A DNA stretch of 43,311 bases from Bacillota bacterium (GTDB lineage Bacteria > Bacillota > Dethiobacteria > DTU022 > UBA8154), in assembly GCA_012839215.1 (NCBI GenBank), contig DUNV01000009.1, positions 1 through 43,311 of the forward strand, written 5' to 3'. Positions within the stretch are counted from its first letter, which is position 1. The number at the start of each line of letters is the position of its first letter. Below are positions 6,217-43,311 of the stretch, in pieces. Both the position numbers and the translations under genes were made by a program. Below the pieces are notes generated by a model. It was not told where the DNA came from and did no database searches. It worked only from the letters and a program-made list of their open reading frames with translations.

Positions 6217-7329
6217 TCAATTTTCAACCAAAGAAAGCAATTCGCCGGCCGCCTTTTCCACTTCACCCTCTAGTTCCCTAATCTTCGCTCGGAGCCCAAT
6301 TGTAAAATTCTTTTTCCCTTCGGCAAGCACGATATCCAAATCTTTTTTCAGCCGTTCCAGGGTCATTTCCTGCAGCGGTGGCAGCGGGTTTTTCCCCAAG
6401 CGACCCAGGAAAGCATTCACCTTGGGATCATAGGGCAGGGCCAGAAAAGGAATTCCGCTCACGGCGGCAAAAATTAGGGCATGGAGACGCATTCCCACTA
6501 GCATATCCAACCCCCCAACCAGACACATGTTTTCCTTATTGGAAAGGGGGCAATCGATCACCAGGCTTTGCTGTGATAAACCGGAGGCAATTTGCCGGGC
6601 CAGGGGTAGATCCCTGGACAGGTGGTAGGGTAAAAAAACAAGGCGGGCGTTGTAGCGTTGCACCAGATAAATACACGCCCTGGTCAACATTTCAAAAATT
6701 TCTTCTCCGCTGTCCTGCTCCCGCGGAAAAAAACGCAGGGCTATGCCGATGTGAGGTTGCTGCCTACCGGCCTTTGCCATTTTATGCCTGGCCCAAAAAG
6801 TCTCAATTTCCTGCGGCGATGCCGGGCTAAGGGTAAAAACCGGATCGGCTGCCACCCGGATTTCCCGCCCTACCCCCAGTTCCTCCAAAAAGGCGGCAGA
6901 AAGGGGATCCCTGACGCTGATCAGATCGACCTTGTTTAAAACCCGTTTAACCCACCGCCGGGCCAGGGGGTGATGCAACGGGCCCATCCCCTGGGCAAAA
7001 ACGGCGACCTTTTTGCCCATAAAAAAAGCCAGCTCGATCATACCTAGATAGTAGGCAACCGAACGCAGGCTTGTGACATCTTGCAGCAGGCCGCCCCCGC
7101 CACTAATGAGCAGGTCGGCACGATGCAGGGTGCGGAAAATGGAAAATAGGCAGGTACGGGAAACAGACTCGACCCCATATTCCTGTCGGGTATGATCGGG
7201 ATCTGCAGAAAAAACCACCAATTCTGCCCCGGGCAGGCGGCGGCGCACAATGCCGATGATCGCTTCTAAAATTGCCTCATCCCCGGTGTTGTAAAAACCA
7301 TAATAACCCGATAGGGCAATACAGGTCAA
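6217..7329 (-). CDS. csaB: Polysaccharide pyruvyl transferase CsaB
   Basis: CsaB adds ketal-linked pyruvate to a secondary cell-wall polysaccharide so that SLH-domain proteins can anchor. The 370-residue product has the N-terminal GYYGFYNTGDEAIL, a glycine-rich ISGGGGLLQD near residue 75, VFAQGMGP near 113, and the conserved late VGMRLHALIFAAVSGIPFLALPYDPKV region split around residues 278-304. The start is TTG at 7329 behind GGGGGAAGG. It overlaps nothing and sits 21 bp after the unknown gene upstream. No SLH protein or csaA gene is in the window. Confidence 0.92.
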   Translation of the reverse strand: MTCIALSGYYGFYNTGDEAILEAIIGIVRRRLPGAELVVFSADPDHTRQEYGVESVSRTCLFSIFRTLHRADLLISGGGGLLQDVTSLRSVAYYLGMIELAFFMGKKVAVFAQGMGPLHHPLARRWVKRVLNKVDLISVRDPLSAAFLEELGVGREIRVAADPVFTLSPASPQEIETFWARHKMAKAGRQQPHIGIALRFFPREQDSGEEIFEMLTRACIYLVQRYNARLVFLPYHLSRDLPLARQIASGLSQQSLVIDCPLSNKENMCLVGGLDMLVGMRLHALIFAAVSGIPFLALPYDPKVNAFLGRLGKNPLPPLQEMTLERLKKDLDIVLAEGKKNFTIGLRAKIRELEGEVEKAAGELLSLVEN

Positions 7330-7350
7330 AAAACCTTCCCCCCCTTGTAG

Positions 7351-7938
7351 CTACTGCACTACGTTATATTTCCCCCGGATTAAAAAAATAACTTCGGTCT
7401 CCGCTACGGCACCGCGTCCATCATCTTTGGGAGAAAGCAGAAGATGGTTTCGGGGTATAGCTTCCTTGTTTTCCAAATCCACCCCCGATGTCAAATCGGC
7501 AACTCCCCCGCTATCGGCAGCAATTGTCACCGCCCGGCCGCTGCGTAGGATAAATTCCGTTCCATGACCGGCCAGAAACCTGGCCCCTGGCTGTAAAACG
7601 GCAACCTCGTAAACAGGGGCAGGGCTGGGTACCATAACAACTTGTCCGGAAGGAGGCTGCCCTTCGGCATCGCCCCGCGGCCCGTTGCCACCCTCCGTTT
7701 TTAACCCGGAAAGCTCGGCTTTCAGGGTCCTGAGCCTGGCCTCCACCCAGCCGGCAGTTACGAGGGGATCCTCCTCCGATCCGGGAATGGCACTGCCATC
7801 CGCCACAGCCACGCGGCCCAGAAAAAAACCGCCAAGAAGAAAAAGAAAGGCCAGGGCCAGGAAAGGGAACCATTTTTTTCCTACCCTTTGCCACCACGTG
7901 GCATCGAGCTGTTCGCCACGGCTAGCTTGTCCCTGCAT
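7351..7938 (-). CDS. Unknown single-pass membrane protein
   Basis: I do not recognise a family. The 195-residue protein has a short cytosolic N-terminus, one strong transmembrane segment (about residues 23-44, FPFLALAFLFLLGG), a Pro/Gly-rich stretch with a short possible coiled coil (ARLRTLKAELSGLK), and a C-terminal domain of about 80 residues (LQPGARFLAGHGTEFI, then NHLLLSPKDDGRG and VIFLIRGKY). That tail looks like a compact beta-rich extracytoplasmic domain. ATG 7938 is chosen for GGAGGTG five bases upstream. It lies between the radical SAM and csaB genes with gaps of 21-35 bp, so it is probably co-transcribed and may belong to envelope assembly. Confidence 0.75.
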   Translation of the reverse strand: MQGQASRGEQLDATWWQRVGKKWFPFLALAFLFLLGGFFLGRVAVADGSAIPGSEEDPLVTAGWVEARLRTLKAELSGLKTEGGNGPRGDAEGQPPSGQVVMVPSPAPVYEVAVLQPGARFLAGHGTEFILRSGRAVTIAADSGGVADLTSGVDLENKEAIPRNHLLLSPKDDGRGAVAETEVIFLIRGKYNVVQ

Positions 7939-7973
7939 TTCGCCACCTCCACATGCCATCACTGTAAAAAAGA

Positions 7974-9095
7974 TCAAATATAGTTGGACATATATTCAGC
8001 CACAAATTCTTCTAAATCTTTTCCCTGTTTTTTTAGTCCCGCTTTTACCTCTTCGACCTGGCGAAAAAGCCTTGGATCGTTTCTATCATTTAGGAAGCGG
8101 TAAAGGCCCAGCCTTCTCCCCAGGCTGAAGTTTTCCCTTTCCTCAGTGGGAAGGCTGAGATAGCTGTTGACAACGCCGATCATTTTTTCCATATCATCGG
8201 GGAGTTTTCCTTGTACCTCCTCCAGGAGGTTCAGAATGTGATCGCTGACAATTGAGCCGGTCCCATCGAAATTTTGCAAGAGCAATCTTTCCTCCATGGC
8301 CAGCCCATCATCATTCTGAACCTGAAACTCACCGCTGTCTATATATGTTTGTAGCGGGCCGCCCCTGCGGGCAGCAAGTGTGCGCATACGCACATAATGC
8401 GGATCGATACTTGAAAGAACCATGGCGGTATCCATGGCATGTTCCCGCCAATACTTCCTCCCGCCTAGACCCAGTAGAATATACTCGCAGAGGTTGAGAC
8501 CGGCTTCTTTTAGCATCAGGCCCGCCTTAATATGTTCCTCCGCTGTGACACCCTTGCTCATAAACTCCAGCAAGGGATCAAAGCCCGATTCCATGCCTGA
8601 ATGTACCCTGGTCAAGCCGGCGTCTTTCAAAATCTTTAGCTCTTCGACCGTGCGCCTGGCTATAGATTTTGTGCGGCCATAGGTTGTAATCCGCTCTACA
8701 GTGGGAAACTGCTCCTTGATATAGGAAATTACCTCAGCTAGTTCCTCGGGAGGCAGGATCATGCAGTCGGCATCCTGCAAAAAAACATTTTTGCCTCCCC
8801 TAAAAAGCCAGAAGGCAATCTGCAAAAGGTTGGGATCGTGATCATAGACCAGCTGTAAAACCTCGCGGGTTATCTCCTCTTTTCCCTGCTGAAATGCATA
8901 CATCCAAACTTTTTCTTCAGCCTCCTTGAGGCCAAGAATATCTTTTTTGATCTCCTCCACCGGCCGGCGGGAAAATTTCTTACCTTTATAAATGACGCAA
9001 AAAAGGCACTTGTTCCATGGGCAGTTGCGGGTAAGCCTCACGAACAAACTTTCAGCCTCGCTAGGGGGCCGGATTGGCCCTTGTTCAAAATTCAC
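7974..9095 (-). CDS. Radical SAM protein (COG1032-like)
   Basis: A 373-residue radical SAM enzyme of unknown reaction. The cluster-binding motif is near the N-terminus: Cys25, Cys30 and Cys33 (RNCPWNKCLFC), giving CX4CX2C instead of the usual CX3CX2C. Later features fit a TIM-barrel radical SAM core: VFLQDADCMILPPEEL near residue 104, ITTYGRTKS near 138, a RVHSGMESG strand near 165, and CEYILLGLGG near 205. There is no B12-binding domain. The start is GTG 9095 with GGTGGTGAAAG upstream. It is the first gene of the minus-strand run leading to csaB and is divergent from pcm. Confidence 0.85.
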   Translation of the reverse strand: MNFEQGPIRPPSEAESLFVRLTRNCPWNKCLFCVIYKGKKFSRRPVEEIKKDILGLKEAEEKVWMYAFQQGKEEITREVLQLVYDHDPNLLQIAFWLFRGGKNVFLQDADCMILPPEELAEVISYIKEQFPTVERITTYGRTKSIARRTVEELKILKDAGLTRVHSGMESGFDPLLEFMSKGVTAEEHIKAGLMLKEAGLNLCEYILLGLGGRKYWREHAMDTAMVLSSIDPHYVRMRTLAARRGGPLQTYIDSGEFQVQNDDGLAMEERLLLQNFDGTGSIVSDHILNLLEEVQGKLPDDMEKMIGVVNSYLSLPTEERENFSLGRRLGLYRFLNDRNDPRLFRQVEEVKAGLKKQGKDLEEFVAEYMSNYI

Positions 9096-9145
9096 TATCT
9101 TTCACCACCAAACTTTTTTGATGGAAGGGGGTGTTTCAATTAGAT

Positions 9146-9175
9146 TTGCCCTTCCCATCTTTTTCGTGCTATAAT
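9146..9175 (+). promoter_or_regulatory. Probable SigA promoter of pcm
   Basis: TTGCCC (9146-9151), an 18-bp spacer and a consensus TATAAT (9170-9175) end 21 bp before the pcm ATG. Confidence 0.55.
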
Positions 9176-9196
9176 CGCTAAAACAGGAGGAAAACC

Positions 9197-9841
9197 ATGG
9201 ATGAATCAAGATATTCATTGCTCCGTCAACAAATGATCAGCGAGCAACTAGAACCCAGAGGGATCGACAATTTGCAGCTACTAAGCGCTTTCCGCAAGGT
9301 GCCCCGCCATCTCTTTGTAACAGAAGAAAAACGCCACCTCGCCTACAATGACTATCCTCTTTCCATCGGCGAAAAGCAGACCATCTCCCAACCCTATATC
9401 GTCGCTCTGATGACGCAGTCCCTCCAGCCCCAGAGGCACGAAAAGGTATTGGAGATAGGAACGGGCTCCGGCTACCAGGCAGCCATTCTTGCCGAGCTGG
9501 TAAAACATGTTTATACCGTTGAACGGATTGAAAGACTTTCCCTGCGGGCCAAAAGAGTATTGGACGAGCTGGGGTACAACAACATCAGCTATAAAAGCGG
9601 CGATGGTGCAGCCGGCTGGCCGGAAAAAGGCCCTTTTGATAGCATCGTCGTAACTGCTGCCGCCGACAAAATTCCCACAATGCTACTCGAACAACTGCTC
9701 CCGGAAGGACGTATGGTTATCCCTGTCGGCAATCCGTTTTTACAAGATTTACTCCTCATTACCAAGGAAAAAGAAGGCACTGGCATCCAGCAGCAAAAAC
9801 TTTGCGGATGCCGTTTTGTCCCCCTTATTTCCTCAAACTAA
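9197..9841 (+). CDS. pcm: Protein-L-isoaspartate O-methyltransferase
   Basis: Pcm methylates L-isoaspartyl residues with SAM to start their repair in aged proteins. The 214-residue product shows the N-terminal family block VPRHLFV, then ISQPYIVALM near residue 63, motif I VLEIGTGSGYQAAIL near residues 83-97, the acidic VYTVERI, and VTAAADKIP near 152. ACAGGAGG is placed seven bases before the ATG. It is monocistronic and convergent with the COG2122 gene 12 bp away. Length and motifs are standard. Confidence 0.95.
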   Translation: MDESRYSLLRQQMISEQLEPRGIDNLQLLSAFRKVPRHLFVTEEKRHLAYNDYPLSIGEKQTISQPYIVALMTQSLQPQRHEKVLEIGTGSGYQAAILAELVKHVYTVERIERLSLRAKRVLDELGYNNISYKSGDGAAGWPEKGPFDSIVVTAAADKIPTMLLEQLLPEGRMVIPVGNPFLQDLLLITKEKEGTGIQQQKLCGCRFVPLISSN

Positions 9842-9853
9842 AACGATTTCCGG

Positions 9854-10606
9854 TTAAATTTCCTCTAGGTGCATGTCACCCCAAACCGCCATTTTATCAT
9901 CCTTGATGACCAGCACCCCTTCCACTCCGGGTAATTTTTTGGCAAAATCCACCGCATTTCCCAGATCAGCGGTCGATTGAACTAGATTGCCAGTGGCAGT
10001 GGCAATGGCATCGGCCAAAAGTGCATCCTTGGCCAATATTACTGCCGCGTCTGCCCGCCCATGGCTAAAGGATGGGCCCACCGTTCCCGAGGAAGTACAC
10101 AGCCCCCAAGGACCGCCCGGCTTCAAACGCACGGCCAGCTTACCGCTAAACAGCGAGCTGCCAGCATAGATACCCACTTTTACCCTATGCAGGCAAAAAA
10201 CAAACAAATCCCCGCCATTTTCCACGATAACCTGGGGATATTTTCTAAGCAACCAGACCCCCGCAAGCTGGGCAAAGGCACCAGCCACCGCAGCCATGGG
10301 TCCCACCCCGGCAATGTTTCCTGCCCGGACCATTAGGAGAACAATTGGAGGGGCCCCGGGACTGGCCAAACAGGGTTCAAAGGTTTCCCCAAAAAAAGGA
10401 AACTGGGCAATATATTCCTCCAGGAGGCGTCTTTGCCGCCAGACAAACGTTGCAAATTCATTCTGAAAATCTTTGCTTACGGGCTCTACCTCGGGGGTAT
10501 GGCCGCCCACTGCTACCCAAAGATCTGTTTCCCTGATTGCCATGGAAAAGGAGCTCATACCCTCAGGACAGAGCCCCCGGCGATAATTTCTTCGGGCGTG
10601 ATCCAT
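9854..10606 (-). CDS. UPF0280 (COG2122) protein of the homocysteine-synthesis set
   Basis: A 250-residue ApbE-like fold protein of the UPF0280/COG2122 family: YRRGLCPEGMSSF at the N-terminus, APPIVLLMVRAGN near 95, the glycine-rich GPMAAVAGAFAQLAG near 111, VIVENGGDLF near 135, and CTSSGTVGPSFSHGRADAA near 180. In methanogens this family is genetically linked to making homocysteine from aspartate semialdehyde at low sulfide; the chemistry is not settled. ATG 10606 lies one base beyond the stop of the ferredoxin gene, with GGAGG about 12 bases upstream inside that gene, so translation is probably coupled. Third gene of the set. Confidence 0.88.
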   Translation of the reverse strand: MDHARRNYRRGLCPEGMSSFSMAIRETDLWVAVGGHTPEVEPVSKDFQNEFATFVWRQRRLLEEYIAQFPFFGETFEPCLASPGAPPIVLLMVRAGNIAGVGPMAAVAGAFAQLAGVWLLRKYPQVIVENGGDLFVFCLHRVKVGIYAGSSLFSGKLAVRLKPGGPWGLCTSSGTVGPSFSHGRADAAVILAKDALLADAIATATGNLVQSTADLGNAVDFAKKLPGVEGVLVIKDDKMAVWGDMHLEEI

Positions 10607-10607
10607 C

Positions 10608-11012
10608 CTAGTAGCGGACCTCCATGGCCCGGGAAGGACAGGCAGTGATGCAATGTTCACAAATGATGCATTTTTCGCCATCAAAGTGGACCAGCATGGC
10701 GGGGCGTTCCATGACAAGGGCACCAGCCGGGCAGATCACGCTACAGGCACCACAATGGGTGCAGCGCTCTTCCACCCAAATGATTTCCTGTTCGAGGGGA
10801 AGGGTTTTTACTCCCCGGGAATGCAGAAAATCTAGCCCGGCCCGGAAATCATCCTTATCACCGCTGATCTCTGCTACAATGCGGCCCTCCATCTTAGGAT
10901 TAATATTTGCCTTCAGGATATTGACCATTAGATTGAAATCCTTGATTAGGGAATAGGTTAAAGGATGTTCCACCACAGATTCTGGGAAATACAGCACCAT
11001 TTTTTCTCTCAT
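10608..11012 (-). CDS. NIL domain plus 2[4Fe-4S] ferredoxin of the homocysteine-synthesis set
   Basis: This 134-residue protein combines an N-terminal NIL domain (about residues 3-75, a ligand-binding fold also found at the end of MetN) with a C-terminal ferredoxin holding two cluster motifs, CTHCGACSVICP and CIICEHCITACP. Proteins with this architecture are required, together with COG1900, for sulfide-dependent homocysteine formation in Methanosarcina; the ferredoxin part probably supplies electrons for reductive sulfur transfer. Its start overlaps the stop of the COG1900 gene by four bases (11009-11012), a sign of tight co-expression. Membership of the set is inferred from architecture and order. 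Confidence 0.92.
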   Translation of the reverse strand: MREKMVLYFPESVVEHPLTYSLIKDFNLMVNILKANINPKMEGRIVAEISGDKDDFRAGLDFLHSRGVKTLPLEQEIIWVEERCTHCGACSVICPAGALVMERPAMLVHFDGEKCIICEHCITACPSRAMEVRY

Positions 11013-12211
11013 AGAAGCTCCCCTCCAACGCTTCTTTTATAATCGACCCCTTCATTTGTCAGGGGAAGTGTAAAGACAGGTTCAGTGAGGAAAAACTCGC
11101 CTTTTTGGATCCATTCCTTCAGCGTTCCGGCAATCTGTCTGGCCCCGGCATAGCTCGAAAGGGAGGCCGTAGGGACAGTCTTATCCCCCAGGGTTATTCG
11201 CCCGCTGCGCAGCTGGGCAAAGCTGACCCTCTCCAGTACCTCGCCCAGCCCTTGGGGATAGGACTGGCTATAGTCCACGACAGGAACAAGAATGTCCTCA
11301 TCGGCTACCGCCGTATATTTTAAAATTTCCTCATCCAGGATAGGAATGGGAATTCCCAGTCCCACCATTAGCGAGGCACCATAACCAAGCAGGCTCACCC
11401 CCCGCAACCATTTCCGGGACATCTGCTTTAAATCGCCAATGACGGCCAGCGTCCCCGCCGGGGAAGTGGGAACTCCATTTTCGCCCCGGGGCGCTTCCGG
11501 AGAGTGTTGCGTTCCAAACCAACTGATGTAACCCACACCGCCCCCCAGGAAAATTTTTGTTCCCAGGCCAAGGGTACGGTAACAGGGGTCATTGAGCAGT
11601 GGGGAAAGCTGCCCTGACGTGCTGTAATTGGCGTTTCCCAGGTTAGGCTTGAGAATGCCCATATAGGTATAAAGCGTTCGCTCGGAAAGATTGACTCCCA
11701 CGTTATAATTCTGATAAGCGTTGCGTGTATTATAAAGAACGGCGTAAGGCATATCATCCAGTGTAACAGCCTTTTCATAACTTTTGCGCGGATAACAATC
11801 GGTGCCATAACTGGAGGCGTCCAGCAACACTTCTTTGCCCGCAACGAGATCCTCGATAACATGCCCGCCACCATAGCTAAAGTGGCCGGGATAGGACTTG
11901 TTGGCCGGATCTGTTTCCGGTATTTGTGTTGCCCCAAGATAGGCATCCACAGCAGCAATTCCCGCGTAGGCCTCCACCCCGTTAAGATAAATTTTGCTCA
12001 TGCGCATGCGTGGTTTGGGATGGCCCAGGTTTAAAAATGCGCCGGATGAACACATAGGTCCAAAGGTGCCCGTGGTCACTACATCGACATGGGATGCAGT
12101 CTCTTCTATTCCCCTTTCCTCAACCATAGAAATGACTTCTTCCGCAGTAACAACAACTGCTTTTCCGGCCCGGATTTTTTCGTTGATCTCCGCATATGTT
12201 CTTTTAATCAA
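11009..12211 (-). CDS. COG1900/DUF39 homocysteine biosynthesis protein (aspartate-semialdehyde sulfurtransferase type)
   Basis: Belongs to COG1900 (DUF39, HcyS-like), which makes homocysteine from aspartate semialdehyde and a sulfur source, bypassing homoserine acylation. The frame is open to 12547, but the family's usual start (IKRTYAEINEKIRAGKAVVV) follows a TTG at 12211 that has AAGGCAGGTG upstream. Starting there gives 400 residues and places conserved cysteines at 54 (GTFGPMCSSG) and 139 (YGTDCYP). Two cysteines are reported to matter in the archaeal homologue. An alternative ATG at 12277 lacks a ribosome site. The CBS domains seen in some homologues are absent. The ferredoxin gene overlaps the 3' end. 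Confidence 0.92.
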   Translation of the reverse strand: MIKRTYAEINEKIRAGKAVVVTAEEVISMVEERGIEETASHVDVVTTGTFGPMCSSGAFLNLGHPKPRMRMSKIYLNGVEAYAGIAAVDAYLGATQIPETDPANKSYPGHFSYGGGHVIEDLVAGKEVLLDASSYGTDCYPRKSYEKAVTLDDMPYAVLYNTRNAYQNYNVGVNLSERTLYTYMGILKPNLGNANYSTSGQLSPLLNDPCYRTLGLGTKIFLGGGVGYISWFGTQHSPEAPRGENGVPTSPAGTLAVIGDLKQMSRKWLRGVSLLGYGASLMVGLGIPIPILDEEILKYTAVADEDILVPVVDYSQSYPQGLGEVLERVSFAQLRSGRITLGDKTVPTASLSSYAGARQIAGTLKEWIQKGEFFLTEPVFTLPLTNEGVDYKRSVGGELL

Positions 12212-34238: not shown

Positions 34239-36890
34239 TTAGTTCTTTTGTGCCAGGGCCTCCTTGACCTTTGCTGCTGTTGCCGGAAGCTCGCAAATCC
34301 AAACGCCAACGGCGTCTTTGATAGCGCTGATGACAGCCGGGGCGGTGGGAACCATCGTCATCTCGCCAACACCGACAGAGCCCTTGGTGCCCCTTGCCCG
34401 CGGCGTTTCCCTGATGATCAGTTCCATATCGAATGATGTTTTGATGCTGGGGAACTTGAATGTAGCCCAGTCTTTGGTCTGCCCGGCAATGTATTCTTCG
34501 CGCAGGGCATAGCCTGCGCCCATGTCCGCGCCGCCTTCTAGTTGGCCTTCGAAGTTCTGTGGATGGATCACCGGGCCGCCATCGACTGCTGTAGTCATTT
34601 TGACGATCCTGACTTCGCCCGTTTCTGTGTTTACTTCCACTTCGGCCATCTGCAAGGCATGTATCTGCGATTCGAAAGCTGCTCCCTGGCCGGTTTGTGG
34701 ATCCATCGGGCCCCTGTCCACAGTGGCCTTGGTACCCACATAGCGGGCGGAGCGCCCGGCCTGTTCCAGTTCAGACCTCGTTGTAGCTCCTGTTTCTTCC
34801 ATCACTTGCTTAAGTTGTTCGAGGGCATTGATCATTGCACCGCCGACCATATAGGTGATACGGCTGGCAGCAGCCGGCCCTGTTTGTGTCGTCAGGCCTG
34901 TATCCCTGGTGGAAAGACGGATTTTATCAATGGGGATGTTCATAAAATCAGAGGCCAACTGGGTAAACATGGAATCATTACCTTCTCCGGGATCGGCTGC
35001 GGCGGCAAAAATGGTCAATCCGCCATCGGCATCGAGTTCCACAGCGGCAACGGCCTGATCCCCCGGGCCTCCTATGCCGAAGGCACCGGCGGCCAATCCC
35101 ACGCCCCGTCGCAAGACGCCGTTTTTAAATTCCCGGGCCTCACGGCAGCTGCGTTCGTAGTGTGGACGTATGGCCTCGCAGAGTTCAGGAAAGGGCCATT
35201 CTGTAACTTCGTTCCCGGTGGATTTCGTCTGCCCGGGCTGCAGTGAATTGAGCAGGCGGAATTCCAGGGGATCTATCTTCATTTCTTCTGCCAACATGTT
35301 GATAGAACATTCGAGGGCAAAGTGTGCCTGGGGCGGGCCGGCGCCGCGGGCGGCAGACCCCCAGGGGTTGTTGGTGTAAACAAGGCGGCATAGTGCATCG
35401 ACGTTGGGTATGTTATAGGAACCGGAGAGCATCAAAAGGGCGCGCTCGATGATAACGTGCCCAATGGAGTTGTATGCACCATTATCCACGATGGTATAGA
35501 AACGGTAACCGGTAATTTTCCCATCCTTGTCCGCACCCATGGTAACATCCATATGGAAGGGGTGACGTTTCGGGCCCATTTCCATAGATTCCTTCAGGCT
35601 GGGAATATAGCGCACAGGTTGCCGGAAATGCACTGCCGCCCCGGCGGTGATGCCTTCGGAGGTGATTTCTGCCTTGATGCCAAATTGCCCGCCGGAATAG
35701 GCTTCCACATAACGCATATCTTCCCAGTCCAGGGCTTCCTGCAGCATGGCCAGGTGCTGGTGAATATCTATACTGCGCCCGACAACAACTAATTGGGCAT
35801 CTTCACCCTCGCCATCGAAATATGCCACACAGGCCTCCGGTTCCAAAGGGGCCTGGTGGTTCACCTGTGTCACAAAACGGCCGTTGATCACCGTGGCCGA
35901 TCCGGCCAGTGCTTTTTGGGCGTCCCCCTTGATCTGGCGCTGGGTATGGACCAGGTTGGGCAGATCATGAATCTGTACCGCACCTTCGGCCAGGGCTTCC
36001 TGGGGCGAGCCCAAAACAGGCAGGGGTTCATACTCGACCTTGACGGCCCGAACTGCCGCAATGGCCTGGTCGCGGGTTCTTGCTGCAACGACCGCCACAG
36101 GATCACCGATATAGCGGACCTTGTCCTCACAGATAACCGGACGATCATCAAAAATCATTTTGAGGCGGTTTGTGCCCTTGATATCCTTTGCTGTCATCAC
36201 CCCAACCACGCCCGGCATTTGCAGCGCTTCCGAGGGGTCAATCCCTAGAATTCGGGCATGGGCATGTGGGCTGCGCACTGCCGCTATTTCCAGTGCCCCG
36301 GGGATGATAATATCCGCTGTAAATTGCGCCGTTCCACAGGCTTTGGCCAGTGCCGAGGGGCGGGGGTGTGAAACACCCAGCTTGGGGCCATGCGGATCGG
36401 GACGCACATCCTCCGGGGTAATTTCGCCGCGCAAAAAGCGGGCTGCCAACCTAACAGCATCAAAAATTTTGACATAGCCTGTGCAGCGGCAGAGGTTGCG
36501 TTGTAACGCTTTTTTAATTTCTTCGGTGCCCGGATCCGGATTTTCATCCAGCAGTGCTTTAGTAGCCATGATCATACCGGGCGTGCAAAAGCCACACTGG
36601 ATTGCGCCGGAAAGGACAAACGCCTCCTGGATGAGATGCGGGTTCTCGGGCGTGCCCAGGCCCTCTACAGTGATAACCTCGGCGCCTTCGAGCTTAGTAA
36701 CTTTAAGCAGACAAGATCTTTCCGCCTTGCCATTGACGATTACTGTGCAGGCCCCACACTGGCCAGCCTTATCACAGGATTGCTTGGTACCGGTCAGATG
36801 TAATTCATCCCGGAGCAAATCGAGCAGGGTAAGTCCCGATCCTGCAACTACCTCCCTGGAAATGCCATTTATCTTCAGTTGCACTTTCAA
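34239..36890 (-). CDS. Fused [2Fe-2S]/molybdopterin aldehyde-oxidoreductase-type molybdenum hydroxylase
   Basis: 883 residues, one chain as in Desulfovibrio gigas MOP: a plant-type [2Fe-2S] domain (Cys39, 45, 48, 60), an alpha-helical second cluster domain (Cys99, 102 and Cys134, 136 in NLCRCTGY), then the two Mo-binding domains (RPSALAKACGTAQFTADI near 178; NHQAPLEPEACVAYF; TNNPWGSAARGAGPPQ) and the catalytic glutamate Glu843 in GSVGVGEMTM. There is no FAD domain, so electrons must pass to a separate acceptor. The first cluster loop is CX5C, where MOP has CX4C. Such enzymes need a sulfido (or selenido) ligand on Mo. Substrate could be an aldehyde or a heterocycle. A DsrC-like protein follows in 21 bp. 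Confidence 0.93.
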   Translation of the reverse strand: MKVQLKINGISREVVAGSGLTLLDLLRDELHLTGTKQSCDKAGQCGACTVIVNGKAERSCLLKVTKLEGAEVITVEGLGTPENPHLIQEAFVLSGAIQCGFCTPGMIMATKALLDENPDPGTEEIKKALQRNLCRCTGYVKIFDAVRLAARFLRGEITPEDVRPDPHGPKLGVSHPRPSALAKACGTAQFTADIIIPGALEIAAVRSPHAHARILGIDPSEALQMPGVVGVMTAKDIKGTNRLKMIFDDRPVICEDKVRYIGDPVAVVAARTRDQAIAAVRAVKVEYEPLPVLGSPQEALAEGAVQIHDLPNLVHTQRQIKGDAQKALAGSATVINGRFVTQVNHQAPLEPEACVAYFDGEGEDAQLVVVGRSIDIHQHLAMLQEALDWEDMRYVEAYSGGQFGIKAEITSEGITAGAAVHFRQPVRYIPSLKESMEMGPKRHPFHMDVTMGADKDGKITGYRFYTIVDNGAYNSIGHVIIERALLMLSGSYNIPNVDALCRLVYTNNPWGSAARGAGPPQAHFALECSINMLAEEMKIDPLEFRLLNSLQPGQTKSTGNEVTEWPFPELCEAIRPHYERSCREAREFKNGVLRRGVGLAAGAFGIGGPGDQAVAAVELDADGGLTIFAAAADPGEGNDSMFTQLASDFMNIPIDKIRLSTRDTGLTTQTGPAAASRITYMVGGAMINALEQLKQVMEETGATTRSELEQAGRSARYVGTKATVDRGPMDPQTGQGAAFESQIHALQMAEVEVNTETGEVRIVKMTTAVDGGPVIHPQNFEGQLEGGADMGAGYALREEYIAGQTKDWATFKFPSIKTSFDMELIIRETPRARGTKGSVGVGEMTMVPTAPAVISAIKDAVGVWICELPATAAKVKEALAQKN

Positions 36891-36975
36891 TATGGTCCCT
36901 CCAATCTTGTTGACACTTCAGCGGGCATTAGGCACGGCGGCAACACCATCAAAAACCGCCATCTCTGTAGTTGGT

Positions 36976-37006
36976 TGCGGGCAACACTACTAAAGTGTTG
37001 CCCGCA
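36976..37006. other. Perfect 13-bp hairpin between the nitrilase and molybdenum hydroxylase genes
   Basis: TGCGGGCAACACT (36976-36988) pairs perfectly with AGTGTTGCCCGCA (36994-37006) across a 5-base loop. Neither strand has a real U-run after it. It could be an attenuator, an mRNA-processing or stability element, or an inefficient terminator splitting the run into two transcripts. The rest of the 205-bp gap holds no gene. Confidence 0.7.
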
Positions 37007-37095
37007 TTTAGGCTGCTTACAATACTACCTGCTCTGTCTTCATTATGGCCCCTGCTTTTCAACCCGCTTGCTGCATTATCTGCCTCTTGGGCAGC

Positions 37096-38181
37096 CTATT
37101 CCTCAGCCTTATCGGCCAGCTTGGATTCCAGCCAGGCAATACGCTTATTCAGGGCATCGATTTCTGTGTCATATTGGGGCATAAACCCTCCCCCCTCCAG
37201 CCGTTCCATGGGAACTGTGGGGGAATATGGCTGCTCACGACGTACGAGTGCCAGAACATCCCGGCGATCATAAATGCCTAGTATATTTGCATCGGCCTTG
37301 GCCATGGGGATAAGGCTCAGATCAATATCATGATAGACAATGCCTTTGGCCTCATAAAGTGGCTCGGTGACAATGTTACCGAAGGGATCGACCACACAGC
37401 TGCCGCCGACACTCATATGGAAGTTATTGTTGCCATAGGTATCTTCGGGAACATCATCCGGGGAGACATAGGGGGCAGCAAGCACAGCCCAGCATCTTGC
37501 CGAAACGCAAAGCGATTGGGTCATAGCCAGCATAACCGGCTTGACAATGCTCATTCCCGGCCAGAGGGCAGTATGAACCTGTACACCTTCAACCGCCAGA
37601 TGTTGTTTGAGGAGAGGCTGGAAATGTTCCCCACAGATTAACCCGCCTATTCTGCCCAGGGGTGTATCAAACAGTGGGATATTATCACAGGGTTCCACCG
37701 TGGTTACGTCACCACGGGTATGGAAAAACAGCTCGTTAATAGTGATACAAAGTTTTCTATGTGTTCCCAGTACCTTGCCGTCAGGCCCCACATAAAGAAT
37801 GGCATTGTACATGCGGCCATCGTAAACAGGGTCCCTTTCATTCATGCCCATGACGACATAACATCCGGCTCTTTGGGCCGCGGCACAGATGGCCTCGCTC
37901 TCCGGGCCTGGTATAATCGGGGAATTAACCAGGTATTGTTTCCAAAGGAAGAAAAACTCTTTGGCATTGTCCATGCTGGATATATCCATGGAATAGTGGG
38001 GGTAACCAGGGAGAAAAGTTTCAGGGAAAACGACGAGTTTGGCACCGTTTCTACCTGCTTCCTCGATCAGGCTTACTGCTCTGGCAAGGGTAGCATTGAC
38101 ATCGAAGAATTCAGGCCTGTTAACATAAACAGGGCTCTCCTGGACCGCGGCAACCTTGTACGCAGGATATTCCTTGAACAT
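37096..38181 (-). CDS. Nitrilase-family carbon-nitrogen hydrolase
   Basis: 361 residues. The nitrilase triad is present: Glu54 in LVVFPETFLPGYP, Lys143 in GTHRKLCI and Cys183 in GRIGGLICGEHFQP, plus the structural second glutamate Glu150. YPHYSMDISS after the first motif and the late SPDDVPEDTYGNNNF match true nitrilases and cyanide hydratases more than amidases. The residue after the cysteine is Gly, where many nitrilases have Trp (CWEN). The C-terminus has a heptad-like helix ending in KLADKAEE. ATG 38181 follows AAGGAGG. It would convert a nitrile to its acid and ammonia; substrate unknown. It lies between a membrane-protein gene and the molybdenum hydroxylase gene. Confidence 0.88.
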   Translation of the reverse strand: MFKEYPAYKVAAVQESPVYVNRPEFFDVNATLARAVSLIEEAGRNGAKLVVFPETFLPGYPHYSMDISSMDNAKEFFFLWKQYLVNSPIIPGPESEAICAAAQRAGCYVVMGMNERDPVYDGRMYNAILYVGPDGKVLGTHRKLCITINELFFHTRGDVTTVEPCDNIPLFDTPLGRIGGLICGEHFQPLLKQHLAVEGVQVHTALWPGMSIVKPVMLAMTQSLCVSARCWAVLAAPYVSPDDVPEDTYGNNNFHMSVGGSCVVDPFGNIVTEPLYEAKGIVYHDIDLSLIPMAKADANILGIYDRRDVLALVRREQPYSPTVPMERLEGGGFMPQYDTEIDALNKRIAWLESKLADKAEE

Positions 38182-38329
38182 TCGACAACCTCCTTGTCTT
38201 GTTATGAAATGATCACGATAAGTTTGTTTCCAGTGGGAATCCACCGCCGAATTTTTGTTCCCGGATTTTGATCGATAGGCATCAACTTCTTCCCACGCTG
38301 CATTTACCAGCTTAGACGGCAGGCCCTAT

Positions 38330-39448
38330 CTATGGGGATGGTTCGCCGTCCGGCGGGGCCAGCGGGGGCAGGGGCCAAAACTGGAACAGATCACCATATG
38401 CCGCCCACATGGGGAACAACAAGGCCAGCATCATTGTATTGGTGGCAAATAGATCATCGGGATAAACCATTGCATCGCCAAACTTCCAGAGGCAAAATGC
38501 CCGAATACCATAATTACCAACAATTGCTATCACTATGGCCAAAACAATATTAAGAAAACCCCCTGCAGCTGACTTTATTGTATTTCCCGGCCACAGCTGG
38601 AAAAGCGTCAGGAGCAGTAGAACCCCAAAGATAAAGGATACCGCATAGGACATAAATGTTAGTGGCTCAATTTTCAGCAGATGAATGCCTATGGCTAGCA
38701 GGATATAACCCAGGATCAGGCATGAGGCCGACACAACAACTCCAAAAAGTGGTTGCTTCATCTTAAGTTTGGTAAAAGGCCACATCCCCAGTGCTGCAAA
38801 CATCCACAGGAAATCGACCGAACAAACTGTATAGGCGGCAGCATGTTCCCAGGGAATGGGCCCACTGGGTGCGGGCAAACCGAAAAGGGGGCCACCAGCC
38901 TGGTAAAAAGGTACAGCTGCAATAGGTGAAGGAGAAACCCCCGCAGGATATGATAATAGATTAAAATTGAATAGTTGGGTCAAACACAGCGCGATCAGGT
39001 AACCGAAAATAATGAAAAGAAAACCTGCCGCCGGGAGGGAAAGCTTATTAAATGGCCAAAAGCCAAAGGCGAGAAAGAGAAAAAACATAGTAATAACTGC
39101 CACAATAGTATAAATGGTCAGATAGGGATGAAGAACACCCCCTCCAATAAAATTGATGAGGAAATAGCTTATCAGTAGTCCCCCTGAGAGTGCAAAGACT
39201 AGAAGCACCACTCCTTTAAAGGGCTGGGGAACGTGTTCAATTGATATGAATCCGCCTCCCCACAGTGCACCGATAACAATAAATAGGCCAATACAGGACA
39301 TAACGTAGTAACCTAAAAAGCCCGTAAACACCTCGATACTAAAACTGCTGGCAATAATAAAGGAGAATAGAAAAGTTACGATCAAAGTAAATAATCCACG
39401 TCCAGGTTGCCTAGCCGCCCATGGTGCTTTTAAAAATTGATCACCCAC
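38330..39448 (-). CDS. Unrecognised multi-pass membrane protein with internal WP-motif repeats
   Basis: I do not recognise a family. The 372 residues form about ten hydrophobic helices. A module recurs: two helices joined by a short loop with a Trp-Pro motif, seen as FGFWPFNKLS (near 130), LGMWPFTKLK (near 224), FQLWPGNTIK (near 290) and FQFWPLPPL (near 360), each but the last followed by a Gly-containing helix (FIIFGYLIA, LILGYILLA, LAIVIAIVG). An earlier PQPFKG loop near 75 may be a further copy. The last two form a W-P-rich C-terminus. GTG start at 39448 has a modest AGG site. It lies between nitrilase and symporter genes, so a transport or sensing role for the same substrate is plausible. 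Confidence 0.75.
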   Translation of the reverse strand: MGDQFLKAPWAARQPGRGLFTLIVTFLFSFIIASSFSIEVFTGFLGYYVMSCIGLFIVIGALWGGGFISIEHVPQPFKGVVLLVFALSGGLLISYFLINFIGGGVLHPYLTIYTIVAVITMFFLFLAFGFWPFNKLSLPAAGFLFIIFGYLIALCLTQLFNFNLLSYPAGVSPSPIAAVPFYQAGGPLFGLPAPSGPIPWEHAAAYTVCSVDFLWMFAALGMWPFTKLKMKQPLFGVVVSASCLILGYILLAIGIHLLKIEPLTFMSYAVSFIFGVLLLLTLFQLWPGNTIKSAAGGFLNIVLAIVIAIVGNYGIRAFCLWKFGDAMVYPDDLFATNTMMLALLFPMWAAYGDLFQFWPLPPLAPPDGEPSP

Positions 39449-39476
39449 TACCTATAACCGCCTTTCTTTTAAATTT

Positions 39477-39488
39477 CCACGATCGTGG
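39477..39488. promoter_or_regulatory. Perfect 12-bp palindrome upstream of the repeat membrane protein
   Basis: CCACGATCGTGG lies 29 bp upstream of the GTG start in the 301-bp gap to the symporter gene. It could be an operator. No further copy was noticed in the window. Confidence 0.3.
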
Positions 39489-39671
39489 AGGCTAACCCGT
39501 TTCCCAAAAATACCCCATCCATCGCAATCCTACCCCAGACATCAGATTAGCTATCCATTTACCACCCCTCTCAACATGAAGATGATCCAACTGCATAGAC
39601 CTTATTTCCGCATTTCCTTGCTGCTATGCCGTTGAAACTTTTTTCACAGTGGCATCAATGAAAGGTAGGCT

Positions 39672-39711
39672 CCGGTGGCAGCAAGCCTGTGTTTTATGCT
39701 GCTACCACCGG
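39672..39711 (-). terminator. Hairpin downstream of the symporter gene
   Basis: CCGGTGG-CAGC and GCTGCTACCACCGG form a stem of 11-12 bp with one bulge and outer AGGCT/AGCCT pairs (39667-39720). It begins about 30 bp after the symporter stop. There is no U-run, so termination may be partial. The rest of the gap 39449-39749 shows no convincing gene. Confidence 0.45.
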
Positions 39712-39749
39712 AAAAAGCCTATTCAACAATAATCTATGCGTCTGCCTGG

Positions 39750-41216
39750 CTACATATTAATGGTAGCAGTCTTTGTTTCCCTAACCAGAAAACCCTTTTC
39801 ACCGGGGATTAGCAGATTAAGCCCGACACCGAGGACTAAAGTAATGACCAGGCTCAGGTAGGTTGCACCAAACCATTCGGGTGCCCCCAGCGCCGCGGGG
39901 AGGCCAGTGTATTCCCAGACAAAGCATGCTACCAGGGAAACAATCATTGTATAGAAGGCAACGTTAGAATTCCTTTTCCAGTAAAGCCCAATAACCATCA
40001 TAACGACAAGGGGAATTCCCAAAGCAAAGATAAAGAGTCCGGCCAACAACATATGCGGGAGATAAAATGCCGGTATTATTGCCGCCGCGCCAACAACAAC
40101 GATCAACAATCTGCTGAGAAAGGGCACTGCTTTATGTTTGTTGGGGGATTTGGAAAGGACAAGATAAAGATCATTAACAATAATTTGGCTGATGCCCATC
40201 GTACAACGTGCCCAGGTAGATAGGACAGCAATTAAAAAGGCAGCCAACACGAGGATCACGACAAAAGTAGGCAAATATGTCAGCAACATCGTCATACCAG
40301 CCATTTTGGGGCCCTCGGCAGCAAATTGGGGTATTGTCCAGGCTGCAAGCCCAAAGGCTATTGTAAAAAAAGCAAAGGGGGTATTGACCAACAAAGCTAT
40401 AAAACTGGACTTCTTTGCTGAAGTAGTATCCTTGGTGGCAAGAATATATTGCACAACCCCCTGATCGGTGAGCACTGTCAAAGTCTGCCCGATTGTTATT
40501 GCCAGGGCAAAACCCAGAATAAGGTTAAGATCTTTGGGCCAAAAGCTGAGGAAATCTGAAAGCCCCTGGCTATTATAAAAGGCATCGACACCTGCCCAAC
40601 CAGCGGGAAGCTTTAACGTTACGATAATAAAAGCAGCTACAACGGCTGCATACATTAAAATAGTGTTCACAATATTTAAGTAAGTCACCTGCCACATACC
40701 CGAAATCAACAAATAAATTAGTGCACAAATCATAAAGAAAATAAGGGCGGTATGGACATCGATCCCCGTGACAATGGCCGTAATTATTGCCCCGCCCTGG
40801 GTCTCCAAAGATAAGAGGGCAAAGCAGAAGACCATCCCGATAATGGAAGTCATAACCCTCGTTTTCAGATCGTATATATTGGCGAAGATTTCCTGAATAG
40901 TGTTAAATCCCATTTTACGATAAACCGCTGCCAGAAAACATCCCAATATAATGAAGTAGAAACCCGTGGGAACCGTATACCAAAATGTAAGAATTCCAAA
41001 TGTGGCGGCCGACTCCATATAGCCGGCACAGTGAAGCGCCCCAATAGCAGAAACACCCATAGTAACTCCTGCTAGCCAGGGGCTGAGCTTTTTATCCCCA
41101 TAAAGATAGCTGTCACCGCTCTTGCCAAGTCCCTTTCTTAGCACAAAAATACCGATAATAATCGATAAACCTATTATGTAGACCAGTACTCCAGTTAAAA
41201 TGTCCCATCTTAACAT
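39750..41216 (-). CDS. Sodium:solute symporter (SSS) family protein
   Basis: 488 residues with about 13 transmembrane helices. SSS features are SYLYGDKKLSPWLAGVTMGVSAIGA near residues 36-60, the NTIQEIFANIYDLKTR loop near 106, TDQGVVQYILATKDTTSAKK near 250, and the STWARCTMGISQIIVNDLY helix near 345. Family members import proline, pantothenate, acetate, nucleobases or other solutes with sodium. This sequence does not tell me which. ATG 41216 is chosen for GGAGG seven bases upstream. A 31-residue hydrophobic protein is encoded just upstream, as often seen for symporter small accessory proteins. Confidence 0.9.
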   Translation of the reverse strand: MLRWDILTGVLVYIIGLSIIIGIFVLRKGLGKSGDSYLYGDKKLSPWLAGVTMGVSAIGALHCAGYMESAATFGILTFWYTVPTGFYFIILGCFLAAVYRKMGFNTIQEIFANIYDLKTRVMTSIIGMVFCFALLSLETQGGAIITAIVTGIDVHTALIFFMICALIYLLISGMWQVTYLNIVNTILMYAAVVAAFIIVTLKLPAGWAGVDAFYNSQGLSDFLSFWPKDLNLILGFALAITIGQTLTVLTDQGVVQYILATKDTTSAKKSSFIALLVNTPFAFFTIAFGLAAWTIPQFAAEGPKMAGMTMLLTYLPTFVVILVLAAFLIAVLSTWARCTMGISQIIVNDLYLVLSKSPNKHKAVPFLSRLLIVVVGAAAIIPAFYLPHMLLAGLFIFALGIPLVVMMVIGLYWKRNSNVAFYTMIVSLVACFVWEYTGLPAALGAPEWFGATYLSLVITLVLGVGLNLLIPGEKGFLVRETKTATINM

Positions 41217-41296
41217 TTGCAAACCTCCAATATTTAAAGAATTTTAACAACTTTTACCGCAAGCCTCTGATAAAGTAGGAACATTTCTTACTGGAA

Positions 41297-41392
41297 TTAA
41301 GTACTGCTTTTGGACGCGATTGCGCTGCAGATCACGTACATAGCCCCGATGAGTACATACATCCAAATAACCCCGCAGAAAATTGATGGCAT
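41297..41392 (-). CDS. 31-residue hydrophobic protein, probable symporter small accessory protein
   Basis: ATG 41392 follows AAGGAGGA, and the frame ends at TAA 41297-41299, 80 bp before the symporter start. The product (MPSIFCGVIWMYVLIGAMYV, then ICSAIASKSST) has one transmembrane segment of about 23 residues and a short basic tail. Tiny single-helix proteins encoded directly upstream of SSS-family genes are a known pattern (for example MetS-type subunits and proteins annotated as symporter small accessory protein). I did not find a sequence match by memory. Support is the ribosome site, hydrophobicity and position. Confidence 0.6.
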   Translation of the reverse strand: MPSIFCGVIWMYVLIGAMYVICSAIASKSST

Positions 41393-41484
41393 GCTACAAT
41401 TCCTCCTTAATAATAATATTTTGCATGACCCTGCCTTCTGTAAAATCCCCCCCTTCCCGGGCTAAATAAAACCAGGCGCCGATC

Positions 41485-41592
41485 TCACGCGCGCCCATAA
41501 ACTATTTTCATAATCTTCTGCACATTTTTCTGCAAACCTGCCCCCTTTATTAAGTTGCCAACCAGAATCACTTTGGCATTACTGCCCACCAT
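41485..41592 (-). CDS. Possible 35-residue small protein or leader peptide
   Basis: ATG 41592 follows AAAGGAGGG four bases upstream, one of the best ribosome sites in the window. The product begins MVGSNAKVILVGNLIKG and ends basic (MKIVYGRA), with no transmembrane helix. A hairpin TTTGAAG/CTTCAAA (41603-41623) sits directly before it, and its 3' arm touches the ribosome site. It could be a regulated small protein or a leader peptide for the symporter transcript. No family is recognised, and a chance frame is possible. Confidence 0.4.
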   Translation of the reverse strand: MVGSNAKVILVGNLIKGAGLQKNVQKIMKIVYGRA

Positions 41593-41602
41593 GTTTCCCT
41601 CC

Positions 41603-41623
41603 TTTGAAGTTCCCCCCTTCAAA
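41603..41623 (-). promoter_or_regulatory. Hairpin overlapping the ribosome site of the small ORF
   Basis: TTTGAAG and CTTCAAA form a 7-bp stem around a G-rich loop. On the minus strand the 3' arm runs into AAAGGAGGG. Such placement could let folding mask or expose the ribosome site. Confidence 0.4.
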
Positions 41624-41718
41624 ACTTTGGAAACATTAAATATCTATATCTGGACCATGATCCAAGTGTAACAAAAAGATGCAAATTCCAGTACCAAATT
41701 CGTTTGTATAAAAATTAT

Positions 41719-43311
41719 CACTATCGTTGCATAAACTGAAAATCAATTTGTCAAGTGGTGAAATACTAAGCAATTAAACGAAATAACCAGGAAAATAGTT
41801 TAAACAGCCATATAAACCTTGCATGATAAAGAAAACTCCTTTATAATAGAGATACATGGTAGTCCTTGCCATAATCCCTAAAATAAAGGAGATCGATATG
41901 CAAGGCAAGGATACTATAAAATCCACATTTGTTCAACTGTTTGAACCAATATTTTCAAAGAATTTTCACAAACTGCTTCAAAAACTGGAGGTTGATAAAT
42001 ACGTCAAAAAGCTAACGGCCTGTAAATTCGTTGTTTTAATGATCTTTGCCCAACTTGAACAGCTAACATGTTTAAGGGAAATCAGCAGCAGCTTTCATAA
42101 CAATGAATTCAGCAATGCCATTAAACTTGAATCCATCAGCTATTCGCAGATTTCCCGTAAACTACGCAGCTTGACCCTGAAAACAGTTCAGTACTTATTC
42201 CAGGATCTAGTCCGGCAAACAGGCAAGCAGACAGGATTTAAGCCGATAAGGGAAAGACTTGGCCGTCTTTATTTGATCGATTCCTCAACAATCAGTCTTT
42301 GCTTAACCAGATACCACTGGGCCAGTTTTAGAAAGACCAAAGCCGGCATTAAATTACACCTGAGGTTAAGATTGTTTGATCAAGGGGTCCTCCCCGATGC
42401 TGCAACCATCACCCCCGCCAAAAAGGCGGACAAAACCCAAATGGATGACCTGATTGTTGAAGAAGCAGGCGCCTTTAATGTTTTTGACCGGGGTTACATT
42501 GATTACCAGAAATTTGATGATTACTGTGAAAAAGGGATACTGTTTGCCAGCCGCCTAAAGAAAAATGCCCTGGTAGAGGTAATCAAGGAACTAGCCCCCG
42601 GTAGGATGATTAAACGGGACAGCATTGTTATACTGGGCAAAGACGGACTTACAAGGATGCACCACCCCCTTAGAATCATCGAAACAACGGATACTGAAGG
42701 TAACCCGGTCGTTATCCTTAGCAACAACTTTACACTAACTGCTAAGGAGATAGGCGACATCTACCGTTACCGTTGGCAGATCGAACTTTTTTTCAAATGG
42801 ATTAAACAGCATCTGCATGTTAAACACTTCTATGGATTAAGCCAACAAGCGGTAGAGATGCAACTCTACGTTGCCCTCATTACCTACTGTTTGCTAAAGC
42901 TGATCCAGTTAAAAACGGGTTACAAAGGGCCGTTACTACAAATCCAAAGACTGCTCAACACCTGTCTGTATGAACCTTTTTCTTGCTTCGTCCGTAAGCT
43001 TTACCGCAGGGCTAAACGCACTTCCCAAGGCCGGCGGAAAGTAGACCATGAAAGGATATATCAAGAAACCTTAAGGCAGGTGATGGCAGGCGAAGCAGAT
43101 CATTTAGATGATCTAACCTATGATCCAGTAATACTCTAAAACAAACACTGATGTTAAAATGTGGAAAGGGCTACCTTTAAGAGATTGCTCCTTTGACCAC
43201 ATGGGGGAAAGTAAACTGTAATAATATGCCATATATGGGGTATAAAGGGTAACCCATTATTTGGAATGCCATGGTTTGACAGGGGCCTAAAATTTTAATG
43301 CAACGCTACTG
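41719..43311 (+). mobile_element. IS4-family insertion sequence reaching the right edge
   Basis: Left end CACTATCGTTGCATAAA (from 41719) and the reverse complement of the right end, CAGTAGCGTTGCATTAA (ending at 43311), match at 14 of 17 positions. They enclose a single transposase gene. The span of 1593 bp is normal for IS4-family elements. The right flank lies outside the window, so the target duplication cannot be checked, and the end may be a few bases further. It is inserted about 125 bp upstream of the first small ORF of the symporter run. Confidence 0.8.
41898..43139 (+). CDS. IS4-family transposase
   Basis: 413 residues with an N-terminal DUF4372-like region (about 10-100) and a DDE domain: Asp128 in LYLIDSSTI, Asp197 in VFDRGYIDY, and Glu296 in the Y(2)R(3)E(6)K signature (Tyr289, Arg292, Glu296, Lys303). 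All catalytic residues are present and the frame is intact, so the element may be active. ATG 41898 follows AAAGGAGA; the frame extends upstream to 41856 without a better site. A poor SigA-type promoter may lie in the left end. Confidence 0.95.
   Translation: MQGKDTIKSTFVQLFEPIFSKNFHKLLQKLEVDKYVKKLTACKFVVLMIFAQLEQLTCLREISSSFHNNEFSNAIKLESISYSQISRKLRSLTLKTVQYLFQDLVRQTGKQTGFKPIRERLGRLYLIDSSTISLCLTRYHWASFRKTKAGIKLHLRLRLFDQGVLPDAATITPAKKADKTQMDDLIVEEAGAFNVFDRGYIDYQKFDDYCEKGILFASRLKKNALVEVIKELAPGRMIKRDSIVILGKDGLTRMHHPLRIIETTDTEGNPVVILSNNFTLTAKEIGDIYRYRWQIELFFKWIKQHLHVKHFYGLSQQAVEMQLYVALITYCLLKLIQLKTGYKGPLLQIQRLLNTCLYEPFSCFVRKLYRRAKRTSQGRRKVDHERIYQETLRQVMAGEADHLDDLTYDPVIL

Follow-up and report, generated by a model that had tools for sequence, protein, structure and literature searches.

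The stretch of DNA analysed here (the window, 43,311 nucleotides of a Bacillota contig, DUNV01000009.1) contains at 38330..39448, on the minus strand, an open reading frame for a membrane protein of 372 amino acids. In our alignment A2, its GTG start falls where four full-length homologues also begin. The gene is one of four that follow each other on the same strand: SSS symporter, membrane gene, nitrilase and a molybdopterin aldehyde oxidoreductase-like gene. The symporter (39750..41222, minus strand; PF00474, E 2e-29) lies upstream, 301 bp before the membrane gene, and none of the NCBIfam symporter models listed scores it above its cut-off. Downstream, after a gap that we read by hand as 148 bp, comes a nitrilase-type carbon-nitrogen hydrolase (37096..38181, minus strand; PF00795, E 2e-45); its open reading frame is listed to 38244, and reading by hand we place the start at the ATG at 38181, which has AAGGAGG 7 nt upstream. 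Further downstream, the molybdopterin-dependent aldehyde oxidoreductase-like protein (34239..36890, minus strand) has MoCoBD_1, MoCoBD_2 and Fer2_2 domains and reaches 758.5 bits against NF045668, below the cut-off of 1100. Counts of promoter-like sites (11, 9.3 expected) and of terminators (3, 7.4 expected) give no evidence of an operon, and Rfam has no match in positions 36000-43311 of the window or in positions 7000-11600 of locus L011.

Three further genes of the window deserve mention. A DsrC/TusE-like protein (PF04358; 33849-34217, minus strand) adjoins the molybdopterin oxidoreductase gene. An isochorismatase-fold hydrolase (PF00857; 27222-27995, minus strand) has an apparent N-terminal signal peptide and for this reason is perhaps exported, which would be unusual. 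Upstream of the symporter gene and near the contig end, a transposase-like reading frame, recognised by eye, occupies 41856-43139 on the plus strand; it would fit a recent arrival of the block made of symporter, membrane protein and nitrilase.

The first-pass annotation could name no family for the membrane protein and suggested a profile search that might reveal a known transporter. We ran this search, and no transporter family was matched: Pfam, NCBIfam and the PHROGs phage families all lack a match at E<=1, as does the SSF profile of the neighbour's family, PF00474. A PDB search matched only a fusion peptide of 32 residues (E 0.14), which we take as chance. The literature searched, PMC3172217 and PMC3509319 included, gave no paper that describes the family of this protein. 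Judged by these comparisons, the protein has no named family.

The rarity of this bacterial protein is evident from the genome counts. The gene was matched in 2 of 97 genomes of the window genome's class and in 4 of 398 genomes of a phylum sample (its own genome included in both), and in 3 of 13 genomes of the class of genome G307. Altogether the family was found in five Bacillota genomes, namely the window's own (G000), G067 (Dethiobacter sp. SURF_39), G197, G307 and G398. The window protein is 58.6-60.4% identical to proteins from another class, as against 50.0% to the one from its own family, and two other species of its genus, when searched, lack the gene. Given both observations, the comparison suggests horizontal transfer of the gene.

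Dethiobacter sp. SURF_39 also has a degraded second copy (L003:6094-6428, minus strand), with a frame change and a stop; a transposase gene stands on one side of it and an acyl-CoA ligase gene on the other. What looked like nitrilase sequence at the beginning of this copy proved to be the copy read in another frame and was dropped, as was a match in genome G268 (E 5.2e-4, 75 positions, three stops), which we take as chance. Among viral contigs, which gave 3 and 116 candidate stretches, there was no relative, and phage records matched none. Plasmids gave no match with the window protein (E<=1e-5) or with the G307 protein (E<=1); the G067 protein found three Klebsiella records.

These records lead outside the phylum. 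A near-identical truncated relative is present in the three Klebsiella plasmids and, on the chromosome, in 13 of 5,426 E. coli genomes (read at L012:7995-8768, L013:12001-12768 and L014:8001-8768), under the accessions WP_187524108.1 and WP_040062538.1, each a 'hypothetical protein'. It resembles the window protein in its QPxxG and WP modules and differs in that the first ~105 residues are missing; identity over the aligned part is 27-30%. The match stands at 39.6 bits (E 3.9e-11) after a large composition correction, and 2,000 shuffles with identical composition reached at most 3.0 bits, so that on alignment scores we regard the homology as secure. In all three of the records read the relative adjoins IS5/IS903-type transposase genes, and on the two plasmids among them it lies near arsenic genes; apparently IS elements have spread a gene fragment.

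The first-pass annotation had described four or five copies of a two-helix Trp-Pro module. The recurring WP dipeptides are indeed there, at residues 131, 223, 286 and 358, and all four are retained in each of the four full-length homologues; at least four WP arise in 118 of 20,000 shuffles of the window protein. The duplication stands, and what needs amendment is the number of copies and the definition of the module. The copies are five, as module 1 ends in W63-x-G in place of WP, and to the WP at the end has to be added a QPxxG motif at the start, so that each two-helix module begins near (Q)PxxG and finishes in W(P). The original observation thus holds and understates the case. The comparisons given below show at the level of sequence that a unit, predicted to hold two helices, is repeated five times in tandem, and its modules are conserved in all five genomes. 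Five hairpin repeats that are still recognisable in one chain are unusual.

All modules read on the minus strand. M1 (residues 14-74, QPGRG to LWGGG, 39227..39409), which has the Trp without the Pro, M2 (residues 75-137, QPFKG to FWPFNKL, 39038..39226) and M4 (residues 232-292, QPLFG to LWPGNTI, 38573..38755) are each delimited by profile comparison, leave-one-out search and MAFFT alignment. M3 (residues 138-231, LPAAG to MWPFTKL, 38756..39037) is delimited by profile comparison and MAFFT, and a Pro/Gly-rich loop of 34 residues separates its two helices. M5 (residues 293-364, SAAGG to FWPLPPL, 38357..38572), placed by MAFFT and by a position-specific matrix (PSSM) applied to the Klebsiella relative, is the most diverged module in the window protein; the Klebsiella relative retains QPWRG there.

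Ten modules, half of them from the window protein and half from its 50% identical homologue in L004, were aligned by MAFFT without guidance; one Gly at the module start and one Trp at the module end are invariant. A profile comparison, which the first-pass annotation had proposed for judging the internal repeat, was run against column shuffles that preserve hydropathy class, 60 per pair. Five of the ten module pairs (M1-M2, M1-M3, M2-M3, M2-M4 and M2-M5) scored better than all 60 shuffles and five did not (M1-M4 8/60, M1-M5 36/60, M3-M4 10/60, M3-M5 11/60, M4-M5 2/60). Module 5 is the weakest here, with matches to M2 and M4 limited to 11 and 8 columns in the vicinity of WP. Leave-one-out searches within the window protein also differ by module: shuffles did as well in 1/500 cases for M2 and 3/500 for M4, which is significant, in 27/500 for M1 and 40/500 for M3, which is marginal, and in 95/500 for M5, which is not significant. 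As a control, windows of the SSS protein equalled the M3 score in 9 of 79 cases and the M5 score in 33 of 83.

The distant relative provides an independent check on module 5. With a PSSM trained on modules 1-4 only, from five Bacillota proteins, the best site in the Klebsiella relative is QPWRG, where module 5 of that protein starts (21.7 bits; of 1000 shuffles, 0 scored as high). Taken alone, the module's end is not significant there (204 of 1000 shuffles), and hits on the Klebsiella modules 2, 3 and 4 do not count as independent, because the matrix had been trained on their counterparts. By this sequence match, it is the module 5 start of the distant relative that rescues the status of module 5.

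With two helices per module, the membrane protein probably has ten. Hydropathy gives clear peaks for nine of the ten and a weak one for the tenth. DSSP also assigns ten helices to an AlphaFold model of the whole protein, though that prediction failed (pLDDT 38) and its model is no evidence for a fold; structure prediction had at most two sequences as input. Module M2 alone was modelled as a two-helix hairpin (pLDDT 78.1, pTM 0.56). Lys and Arg are concentrated on the even loops, which hold the WP and QPxxG joints; the exceptions in charge are two Lys/Arg at the outer end of helix 9 in the window protein and an acidic C-terminus. According to the positive-inside rule, positively charged loops face the cytoplasm, and therefore we infer that the joints are cytoplasmic, a prediction drawn from the distribution of charges. 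There are no invariant charged residues in mid-helix; R17 and E201 lie at helix ends.

It had been asked whether homologues always sit beside nitrilase or SSS genes, and they do not. At E<=1e-10 the window nitrilase finds no relative in any of the four remaining genomes that carry the membrane gene, and within the class it has none above 42% identity, with any match at all in 7 of 97 genomes, its own included. An SSS gene was not seen beside the membrane gene in those four genomes, where neighbours were read by eye and partly by profile. We therefore rejected a nitrilase or SSS partnership as a rule. Instead, butyrate kinase (Buk) adjoins the membrane gene in three of the five genomes, two of which have phosphate butyryltransferase (Ptb) on the other side. 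These two are G307 and G398, with the order Ptb, membrane gene, Buk; nearby they have a regulator of the AraC type and an acylating aldehyde dehydrogenase (names in G398 were assigned by likeness to G307). G307's class counts 13 genomes, and this Ptb has close copies (87-100%) only in the two with the Ptb-gene-Buk arrangement; in the other 11 the best Ptb is 39-46% identical. We read this as co-inheritance of Ptb with the membrane gene. In G197, Buk starts 33 bp after the membrane gene and there is no Ptb upstream. Buk has no relative at E<=1e-10 in the window's genome or in Dethiobacter sp. SURF_39, where the neighbours are a FAD oxidoreductase, a carboxylase domain, an acyl-CoA ligase, an enoyl-CoA hydratase-type protein and EtfB. 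The common thread is carboxylic-acid chemistry, which is a broad class, because the neighbours differ between genomes.

From the architecture and the gene neighbours together we infer a channel or transporter. Enzymes that make or activate carboxylic acids stand alongside (nitrilase, Buk with or without Ptb, acyl-CoA ligase), and enzymes making short acids combined with the five-hairpin plan make a carboxylate channel or exporter possible. Our tentative preference, which we hold at somewhat less than even confidence, is a short-chain carboxylate permease, and a pump seems less likely than a channel or facilitator. A two-helix hairpin would have been duplicated in tandem to five equivalent copies, which would ring a central pore, and through the putative channel the acid that Buk or nitrilase releases would leave the cell, or a substrate would enter. 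Against it count the lack of a match to any transporter family, the breadth of the acid theme, the lack of an adjacent Ptb in G197 and the only loosely acid-related neighbours in Dethiobacter. It also counts against such a permease that butyrate, to our knowledge, leaves many cells without a known dedicated exporter.

The same neighbourhood would be found if the protein were a scaffold or an accessory membrane subunit, which has no pore of its own and holds acid-producing enzymes or the SSS symporter at the membrane. The gene does adjoin SSS in the window and Buk/Ptb elsewhere, and conserved charged residues are very few. However, the other four genomes have no adjacent SSS gene that we could see, and five equivalent hairpins would fit a ring better; we consider a scaffold unlikely. 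Hydrophobic, nearly uncharged helices could instead suit a channel for a small neutral molecule (nitrile, amide, ammonia or undissociated acid), for which UreI/AmiS provide a precedent, and nitrilase releases ammonia together with the acid. But the Buk neighbours handle neither ammonia nor amide, and there is no Pfam hit to any such family, which makes this idea more doubtful still.

If the protein is a carboxylate permease, as we prefer, it could put a name to a short-chain acid carrier in fermenting bacteria, whose exporters of such acids are, as far as we know, mostly unknown. Its five still-similar modules would also show how duplication can build a quasi-five-fold channel.

Among known systems, mitochondrial carriers resemble the window protein in that they, too, consist of two-helix modules in tandem, whose boundaries carry a proline motif. 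They have three modules, whereas the window protein has five and no Pfam hit.

A closer parallel to the predicted plan is the TehA/SLAC1 protomer, which PMC3172217 describes as ten helices in tandem helical hairpins with quasi-five-fold symmetry around a pore with a Phe gate. This plan, which the window protein probably has as well, is what would speak for its being a distant member of the TDT/TehA/SLAC1 family (PF03595) that has diverged strongly, with ten helices, five tandem hairpins and an anion or dicarboxylate channel. The sequences do not agree with it. PF03595 (curated cut-off 27.9 bits) does not match the membrane protein at E<=1, nor anything in the window's genome. In the same phylum the profile has 23 matches in 22 genomes; 21 loci were translated and 18 compared, after leaving out L038 (wrong open reading frame picked), L050 and L052 (weak matches) and L051 and L053 (untranslated). 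Against these 18 proteins, all together or in two subsets, hhalign gave a probability of 0.3-1.1% (E 0.047-0.21), and shuffled or reversed profiles score about equally well. The best local matches do pair module starts of both families, at chance level, and within the 18 TDT proteins the hits of the module PSSM do not rise above chance. The long loop in M3 is a further difference. Because the profile-profile tests gave no kinship, we did not file the protein in TDT/SLAC1; membership is rejected on sequence, and we consider a highly diverged member improbable.

It is somewhat less improbable, though still doubtful, that a previously unrecognised family reached a TehA/SLAC1-like ring of five hairpins independently, with QPxxG at the entry and WP at the exit of each, as a carboxylate channel coupled to Buk or nitrilase operons. 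Returning to the permease that we favour, the likeness to TDT proteins (TehA/SLAC1/Mae1) would consist of ten helices derived from tandem hairpins and of a carboxylate or anion context. By this analogy, the window protein may work like the TehA/SLAC1 family without being a member of it.
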